From: a virus
IMG/VR virus record: IMGVR_UViG_3300047552_000127
Span: 1 to 28,778 of that record
Reading direction: 5' to 3' (one strand)
DNA length: 28,778 nucleotides
Shown here in pieces: positions 3,529 through 8,647 of this stretch. Every line of letters begins with the position of its first letter. Position 1 is the stretch's first letter. Under the pieces are notes generated by a model. That model was not told the DNA's origin and did no database searches. It saw only the letters and a program-made list of their open reading frames with translations. The position numbers and the translations under genes are program-made.

Positions 3529-3711
3529 TCACTCCTTAGCAATTATTGCGGCAGCAAGCAGGGCTATCGAAATGTTGTACGAGTCAGATCCTCGCGAGTA
3601 AATGATTGTTGAGTTTGCGTCAAATTTCTCATAGACAGCTTGGAACACATCAACTGCGTGTTGAGCTTTTTCGTCAATGGATTTGCCAATGGAAATGTTT
3701 TCTTGTGTCAT
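3529..3711 (-). CDS. Small protein upstream of primase
   Basis: This protein of 60 residues is of unknown function. It ends within the start region of the primase gene, so the two are translationally coupled. The preferred start is the ATG at 3711, preceded by AAAGG about 8 bases upstream. An in-frame ATG at 3735 would add eight residues beginning MVAL; it lies immediately after a T-run and a set of hairpins. The leader before it resembles C4-type antisense RNAs, whose neighbouring Icd/Ash-type genes often begin with a similar MVAL stretch. The rest of the protein has no motif that I recognise. Confidence 0.65.
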   Translation of the reverse strand: MTQENISIGKSIDEKAQHAVDVFQAVYEKFDANSTIIYSRGSDSYNISIALLAAAIIAKE

Positions 3712-3735: not shown

Positions 3736-3806
3736 TAAAAAGACAGAGGGCAGGCGGTGGTCGAATCCGCTTTTCGGGAGGGGAGCTACCCCGAGAACCT
3801 AGCCGT
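3736..3806 (-). ncRNA. Structured leader RNA, C4/P4-CI antisense-like
   Basis: Read leftward, this non-coding stretch can form TCGGG/CCCGA around 3774-3794 (with a competing GGGG/CCCC pairing) and GCGG/CCGC at 3754-3770 with a 9-base loop. It ends in a T-run (3741-3737). The loop holds CGACC, which can pair with GGTCG at two places just downstream, one of them overlapping the AAAGG ribosome site of the next gene. Layout and wording are close to what I recall of the C4 antisense RNA family (P1/P7 C4, P4 CI RNA), which silences the genes behind it. No covariance search was possible, so family membership is inference. Confidence 0.45.
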
Positions 3807-3812
3807 GTCAAG

Positions 3813-3824
3813 CAAATATATCAC
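3813..3824 (-). promoter_or_regulatory. Extended -10 promoter for leader RNA and primase genes
   Basis: On the leftward strand GTGATATATTTG contains an extended -10 (TG-A-TATATT). The identical 12 bases occur in the rightward early promoter at 8744-8755. The -35 region is weak. Transcripts from here would begin just before the structured leader and continue, if not terminated, into the small gene and the primase gene. Confidence 0.4.
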
Positions 3825-4018: not shown

Positions 4019-4190
4019 CACTGCGCTTCTCCTTATAAATAACACGCAGCTTCGGCAGCAACTTCGCGTGTGAATCTGGGTATTTTTCTTTCAGCCATTG
4101 CACGACTCTGAAGACATAGAAAGACGTATTGCTACGTCTTTCTAAGAACTTCAGCAGCTCTGCTTCAGCTGCATGGGTTTTGTTGCTCAT
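3996..4190 (-). CDS. Hypothetical small protein
   Basis: This 64-residue protein is charged and mostly helical in appearance (many K, R, E and L residues). No family is recognised. The start at 4190 gives an ATGA overlap with the stop of the preceding gene (4187-4190). There is no strong ribosome site, so translation probably depends on coupling. Confidence 0.6.
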   Translation of the reverse strand: MSNKTHAAEAELLKFLERRSNTSFYVFRVVQWLKEKYPDSHAKLLPKLRVIYKEKRSDEARQHR

Positions 4191-7787: not shown

Positions 7788-8647
7788 TTTTCACCCCCTG
7801 TAAATTCATCAACTTTTTTCTCAGCCCAAACTGGCAAATTTAGAGACACGATTTCGTTTCCGTAGCCTGGCCAGACTCCAGTCTTCTTGCATTCGTGAAT
7901 CGTCTTCAATCGTTCTTTGTATAGCTTGCGTCCGTAGTCCATGACTTTTGATGTGACTGAATACATTGCAGTCGCATATGGTGCAGATTTTTCTTGCGCA
8001 AAAAAGACAAACGGAGGCAGTGATTCAGTTTTCCAGAATCTTTGCCATACATCTGCATAGTAAGCAGCCTGCATATGGTATTGAAGATCCCATGATGAGC
8101 GCCCAAATGACTCTGGCTGAGCGTCCTGCGTTGTTTTGCCATCCAGAATCAATCCATTTGGAAACTGCTCGCAAGGCATGATGGCCAGATCTGGGCGAAT
8201 CTTCAGCGTGAGAGATGTCTCTTCGTCGGTGATGAAGATTGAGTTTTCGATGATGCAGTTCTCGTGAGCGAGAAGCATTGACATGACTGGATGTTTACTG
8301 GCAAGCTCAGCCATCTTTAGGATCTCGCGATACTCATCAGGCTTGAATGGCGTCTTTCCGCTTGCTTCAATCTCAGCGAAAAACGCCTTGCCTTCTTTGG
8401 TGCGACGATCAATGCCTTCTGGAACTTCGACGAAGTCCTTGCGGAAGTTCTCTGGCTCAAACAGTGCTGTATGCCATGCAGTGCCAGTTAGCATTGCTGC
8501 TGTTGCTTCTTTCTTTTCGCGATCTGGATTTACGTAGGCTTGCCAGTAGTGAAGCGCAGAGCGTTCCATTACTTTGAAGTGGCTACTTGAGATGCCATCC
8601 ATTGCATGATATTCCTCGTTGGTGAGGGTTGTGGTGATGTAGTTCAC
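7784..8647 (-). CDS. RecE-type PD-(D/E)XK exonuclease
   Basis: This 287-residue protein fits the putative exodeoxyribonuclease VIII / DUF3799 family. Landmarks are GTAWH at 55-59, E134, RPDL with D153, LDGKT with D169 and K171, and QAAYY at 193-197, which together make up a PD-(D/E)XK active site. It would resect double-stranded ends to give single strands for the Sak4-like protein. It is the first gene of the leftward operon, starting with GTG at 8647 behind a predicted promoter in the divergent region. Confidence 0.88.
   Translation of the reverse strand: MNYITTTLTNEEYHAMDGISSSHFKVMERSALHYWQAYVNPDREKKEATAAMLTGTAWHTALFEPENFRKDFVEVPEGIDRRTKEGKAFFAEIEASGKTPFKPDEYREILKMAELASKHPVMSMLLAHENCIIENSIFITDEETSLTLKIRPDLAIMPCEQFPNGLILDGKTTQDAQPESFGRSSWDLQYHMQAAYYADVWQRFWKTESLPPFVFFAQEKSAPYATAMYSVTSKVMDYGRKLYKERLKTIHECKKTGVWPGYGNEIVSLNLPVWAEKKVDEFTGGEK

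Follow-up and report, generated by a model that had tools for sequence, protein, structure and literature searches.

The window analysed here, the whole 28,778 nt of the viral record IMGVR_UViG_3300047552_000127, carries on its minus strand a small folded RNA that is very probably a brake timing the production of the genes behind it, a gene of 60 aa and a gene for a VapE-like primase. Judged by its sequence, it is related to int-alpA RNA, though divergent, and is not a C4 RNA. Hundreds of phages and their satellites hold related RNAs with joint changes in loop and target. We consider it likely that it acts as an antisense leader of the int-alpA kind, which would block translation of its operon by pairing of a loop with the SD sequence and in this respect would work like the C4 and P4 CI RNAs.

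Anatomy of the leader and its operon

The first-pass annotation had described an extended -10 promoter followed by an RNA of about 70 nt with two hairpins and a T-run, all of which are present on the minus strand:

3823-3815, minus strand: extended -10 promoter TG-A-TATATT (TGATATATT), read from the sequence
3809-3737, minus strand: int-alpA-like RNA of about 70 nt, made up of P1, P2, P3 and a terminal T-run (RF02996 match 3809-3732)
3809-3802 (5' strand, GACACGGC) and 3751-3742 (3' strand), minus strand: outer stem P1, GACA.GGC / GCC...UGUC, with an internal loop
3798-3777, minus strand: P2 hairpin, GGGG-UAGCU-CCCC, hallmark of the window's clade and common to 16 scanned loci
3770-3754, minus strand: P3 hairpin, GCGG-AUUCGACCA-CCGC, with compensatory GCGA/UCGC in the related locus L244
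3766-3758, minus strand: antisense loop AUUCGACCA (core CGACC), complementary to and covarying with sites 1 and 2
between 3802 and 3751, minus strand: junctions UAG (P1-P2), CGAAAA (P2-P3) and CU (P3-P1)
3741-3737, minus strand: terminator-like T-run (T5) after P1, read from the sequence, with a T-rich stretch in clade members
3734-3729, minus strand: target site 1, UGGUCG, just behind the T-run, 6 bp with the loop
3720-3716, minus strand: target site 2, GGUCG, overlapping the SD AAAGG (3723-3719), 5 bp with the loop
3726-3711, minus strand: weak SD-presenting hairpin, UUG-(AAAGGUCGGA)-CAA, read from the sequence
3711-3529, minus strand: 60-aa leader gene (ATG at 3711), predicted to be translationally coupled to the primase
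3532-1184, minus strand: VapE-like DNA primase/helicase (PF05272, 4.9e-51; PHROG primase/helicase)

The last base of the promoter is six positions ahead of the first base of the RNA (3809). The stretch TGTGATATA is retained in the relatives L002 and L244, despite a different upstream gene in L244, and a TAnnnT hexamer begins 15-21 nt ahead of CTAG in 11 of 11 clade members compared. A sigma-70 scan, which requires a -35 element, gave no match here, and the promoter consists of an extended -10 with no convincing -35. The T-run was not flagged by a simple terminator scan, which admits only loops of 3-8 bases.

Downstream of site 1 lies GAAAGGUCGGACAAUG, containing the SD AAAGG of the 60-aa gene, and the regulatory unit runs beyond position 3736, where it had earlier been taken to end, to the start codon at 3711. 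The layout of the SD hairpin (3 bp plus 10 nt) recurs with UCG/CGA in L244 and UUG/CAA in the clade member L255. The start of the primase gene overlaps the stop of the 60-aa gene (TGATG). The 60-aa protein has no Pfam or PHROG match, and neither the leader (blastn) nor the protein (tblastn) finds a match among INPHARED phages; however, the six codons that differ between it and L002 differ synonymously in every case, and this is therefore probably a real gene. Elsewhere in the window, positions 1-400, at the start of the contig, are GC-rich and hold many cggcggcg-type repeat words without an obvious gene, and positions 895-1180, between an HNH gene and the primase end, contain repeated CTCTACCCT words that are possibly iterons or an origin.

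Affinity with int-alpA RNA

By far the best Rfam match is to int-alpA RNA, RF02996, at 26.1 bits over the full length of the model (1-71), with an E-value of 3.5e-5 in the 28.8-kb record and 0.016 when 3 kb are searched against all families; this lies below the gathering cut-off of 35.8 bits, and no other Rfam family scores above its own curated threshold in the window either. The conserved letters of the family (CUAG, CGAAAAGCGG and CCGCCUG) are all present, as are the order P1-P2-P3 and the position as a leader, and the antisense loop with its two sites is found in Rfam-positive relatives too. Three model pairs of P1 are off in a strict RF02996 alignment, and the two strands of P1 do pair. 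Besides its lower score, the window's copy differs from the family in a longer P2 with a UAGCU loop, in the T-run after P1 and in its location, since it precedes the 60-aa gene and the primase of a replication operon, whereas the Escherichia coli copy sits between int and an AlpA-type gene.

When twelve loci with int-alpA-like RNAs were rescanned, nine reached the RF02996 cut-off, and L244, L255 and L260, which belong to the window's own clade, fell below it; the clade is thus a divergent branch missed by the Rfam cut-off.

The first-pass annotation had described the leader as a C4 / P4-CI-like antisense RNA and proposed a search with the C4 model (RF01695). Even at E-values as high as 10, that search gave no match in this region of the window, while the CI RNA of phage P4, used as a positive control, matched the same model at 74.9 bits. 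The rescanned int-alpA loci likewise yield int-alpA matches and not C4 matches. The C4 assignment does draw on real likenesses, as in both RNAs an outer stem closes two hairpins, the second loop is antisense to a downstream SD and a second copy of the target is present, and P4 CI also stands before a primase operon (its loop AUCCUGUGAA fits both UUCACAGGAGG, the stretch with the SD, and a copy further upstream). However, junction lengths and conserved letters differ, and P4 CI has one target upstream and one downstream of the RNA whereas both targets of the window's RNA lie downstream. Membership of the C4 family is ruled out at the level of the covariance model, and we regard it as very improbable overall. 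One element of E. coli, the satellite L261, holds both kinds between 2915 and 6140, with int-alpA RNA at 6140-6074 and, apart from it, an isrK/C4 pair at 3100-2915, which marks the two as distinct RNAs.

A match to the sRNA isrJ stops a few bases before the int-alpA RNA at L045 (4572-4648, minus strand) and also at L050, L059 and L097, and shares with that RNA the word TATCGTC and the P1 strand CCATAGC. IsrJ may represent a shortened copy acting in trans on those targets; the adjacency is not general in the int-alpA family.

Covariation of the loop with two downstream sites

The window's copy would be unconvincing by itself. Its minimum free energy (MFE) fold is not significant against shuffles (z -0.11) and is uninformative as proof of structure; the MFE fold (-21.3 kcal/mol) prefers a slightly different inner pairing from that of the family fold (-18.2 kcal/mol). 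At least 6 complementary bases occur anywhere in 2.6% of shuffles (P 0.026), and at least 6 at site 1 together with at least 5 at site 2 occur in 0.015%. No other convincing ribosome-site target of the loop was found within the window. As neither the fold nor the 6-nt match convinces alone, it is comparative evidence that carries the claim.

Relatives were collected with the pattern CTAG-N-CGAAAAGCGG-N-CCGCCTG, which gave at least 119 viral and at least 120 host-genome stretches, some of the latter lacking P1 and matching by chance. Among the matches listed, 65 non-redundant viral relatives show a longest complement between loop and site 1 of 5.48 nt on average, compared to 3.19 nt after permutation of the loops among loci (z 20.5), and between loop and SD site (the 15 nt holding the SD, site 2) of 4.95 compared to 3.54 nt (z 12.9), with 0 of 2000 permutations as extreme for either site. 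Three controls in these 65 listed relatives were null: matches in the same sense, the region upstream and the coding sequence after the start. With host genomes added (120 non-redundant relatives among the matches listed), the values rise to z 23.3 for site 1 and 15.5 for the SD site (0 of 5000). No enrichment was seen in either listed set for a target upstream of the RNA, as in P4 seqA, and same-sense loop copies upstream are not a general feature.

The start codon lies 35-46 nt past the RNA in nearly all relatives among the matches listed, and in the 65 viral ones a small hairpin usually presents the SD in its loop, with an arm of 4.35 on average compared to 3.11 in simple shuffles. In 36 relatives, helix covariation is 0.738 compared to 0.164 when shuffled, 95.4% of the P1-P2-P3 cells are paired and seven of the eight P1 pairs have changes on both sides. 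The junction letters are invariant across relatives. P3 is invariant among relatives found with the pattern because the pattern fixed it; it varies in L244 and in multi-copy genomes.

The clearest example of this covariation is L244, whose primase is 73% identical to that of the window. Its loop has changed from CGACC to UGACC and both of its sites, in concert, from GGUCG to GGUCA, as seen in a script-compiled table of loops and sites in the clade, and it has a compensated pair in P3 (GCGA/UCGC). In this locus the RNA stands directly ahead of the primase, with no 60-aa gene between and a different gene upstream, and promoter and RNA are retained. In the more distant primase relative L245 no RNA was seen by eye in the upstream region (the L245 and L246 primases are 42-45% identical). 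Genomes and contigs with several copies often carry differing loops, each fitting the sites behind its own RNA; in the viral contig L063, for instance, RNAs at 4107-4171 and 7804-7869 have the loops ACTTCGCCC and CTTCATTCA, each matched to its own sites, with tRNA genes in the vicinity.

Pairing of the loop with both downstream sites is therefore strongly supported across many relatives, as the first-pass annotation had proposed for CGACC and two GGTCG copies, one of them at the ribosome site. Hairpins and a short repeated word brought together by chance might explain the insignificant MFE fold and a 6-nt match found in 2.6% of shuffles. However, this would leave unexplained both the match to Rfam and the covariation, which extends over more than 100 relatives; we regard chance as refuted, its remaining probability being negligible.

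Mode of action and distribution

Comparison of relatives establishes how the RNA folds, that its loop pairs with both sites and that the clade is tied to replication genes; we infer a real transcript, its termination at the T-run and repression. The RNA would be transcribed from its own promoter and fold into P1-P2-P3. In this clade some transcripts may stop at the T-run, releasing an RNA of about 70 nt with a free loop, and read-through transcripts would bear both loop complements, the second lying over the SD of the gene that follows. By pairing with the SD hairpin, the P3 loop would then block the ribosome and prevent translation of the 60-aa gene, and translation of the primase would fall too through stop-start coupling. 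Site 1, which is missing from the terminated RNA, may be a first or closer docking site, or an in-cis competitor that prevents the message from silencing itself. The loop could address its own message, other messages (as in prophage immunity in P4) or both. Points that weigh against the antisense-leader explanation are the Rfam score below the curated cut-off, an MFE fold no better than shuffles that prefers another inner pairing, the missing T-run in most of the wider family, the promoter without a -35 and a loop pairing of just 5-6 bp. The mode of action proposed earlier, an antisense loop with two targets ahead of a primase operon, nevertheless draws strong support from covariation.

Related mechanisms are known from other phages. 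P4 CI pairs with seqA and seqC, causing termination (PMC4825925), and c4 RNA blocks the ribosome site of the ant mRNA (PMC12197685). IsrK of Gifsy-1 (RF01394) is also a small phage RNA with its own terminator and a read-through message in which a short ORF is coupled to a regulatory gene, but it activates translation in trans and differs in sequence and structure (PMC4825925).

The leader may act on its own molecule, on others, or on both. A purely cis-acting switch, in which the loop picks either site 1 (SD free, on) or the SD (off) of the same molecule, perhaps under the control of a ligand or protein bound at the invariant junction, is a possibility that we hold tentatively, at a little below even chances. 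The fixed distance from RNA to start codon and the position of site 1 close behind P1 favour it, since action in trans would not call for a constant distance, and the invariant junction letters agree with it. However, the genes downstream are too diverse and unrelated to point to a single metabolite, and in the window's clade P1 and the T-run would release an RNA without site 1. The RNA's own promoter and T-run in this clade fit a mainly trans-acting immunity RNA, as in P4 CI, by which a prophage copy would silence the replication genes of incoming related phages and changes in the loop would define immunity groups. The architecture is that of P4 CI, the differing loops of multi-copy genomes and contigs would suit such groups, and loop and sites have changed in concert between related primase loci, just as loop and site have between the c4 RNAs of P1 and P7. 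On the other side, the temperate lifestyle of this phage is putative, the only regulator seen being Cro-like, and we put this reading, too, somewhat short of an even chance.

Within the window's clade, comprising 16 loci in a scan for the P2 signature, the first genes behind the RNA resemble replication genes: a VapE primase (L244), DUF1376-like and HTH-type replication initiators and primase-like or Prim-Pol-like genes (L255), the kinds being assigned partly by inspection of protein starts. In the window the primase comes second, behind the 60-aa gene. Clade members also have a T-rich, terminator-like stretch after P1 and a TAnnnT hexamer ahead of the RNA; a clear T-run is missing from the majority of other family members, and termination is thus not general. 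The clade's link to replication genes agrees with control of replication by the RNA, and an on/off switch of replication, as first suggested for this phage, is plausible.

In the wider family the first genes are highly varied, 105 proteins giving matches to 34 Pfam families, none of them in more than four members, and including HNH, endonuclease VII, Rha, antirepressors, replication initiators, integrases and methyltransferases. Defence-gene cargo was not supported as a general rule. Of 233 pairs of near-identical leaders (similarity of at least 0.90), 149 have first proteins that are not homologous, and the leader therefore seems to persist through exchanges of the gene that follows it. L006, L009, L012 and their relatives have near-identical leaders before unrelated genes, resembling a fixed landing platform for exchangeable genes. 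L272 (G329:C35:40-370) holds two tandem orphan copies that share one loop, and no ribosome site was seen downstream of either; behind the second copy stand three ACAGGT words complementary to the loop, an arrangement that looks like a sponge or a decayed target. Int-alpA-like RNAs occur in 36 of 274 sampled Gammaproteobacteria genomes (~13%) and 17 of 199 sampled Planctomycetota genomes (9%), the groups being named from the loci used as centres.

Rfam lists int-alpA RNA as an sRNA family; we found no description of its function in the literature searched, and the family's defining paper may already mention parts of the mechanism. Covariation of the loop with two sites gives this RNA a concrete, testable mechanism and ties it to the classic immunity RNAs of P1 and P4 by mode of action, not by covariance model. 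We judge it an evenly balanced question whether int-alpA RNAs form another class of C4-like antisense leaders, independent of the first and spread well outside the phages of enterobacteria. They would then be a portable control module whose loop code evolves freely, each loop fitting its own two sites; phages and satellites across several bacterial phyla would have placed it before arbitrary genes, and one clade would have joined it to replication genes to serve as an RNA switch for immunity. Given its frequency in the sampled genomes, int-alpA RNA could be a widespread but overlooked layer of gene control in phages and their satellites.
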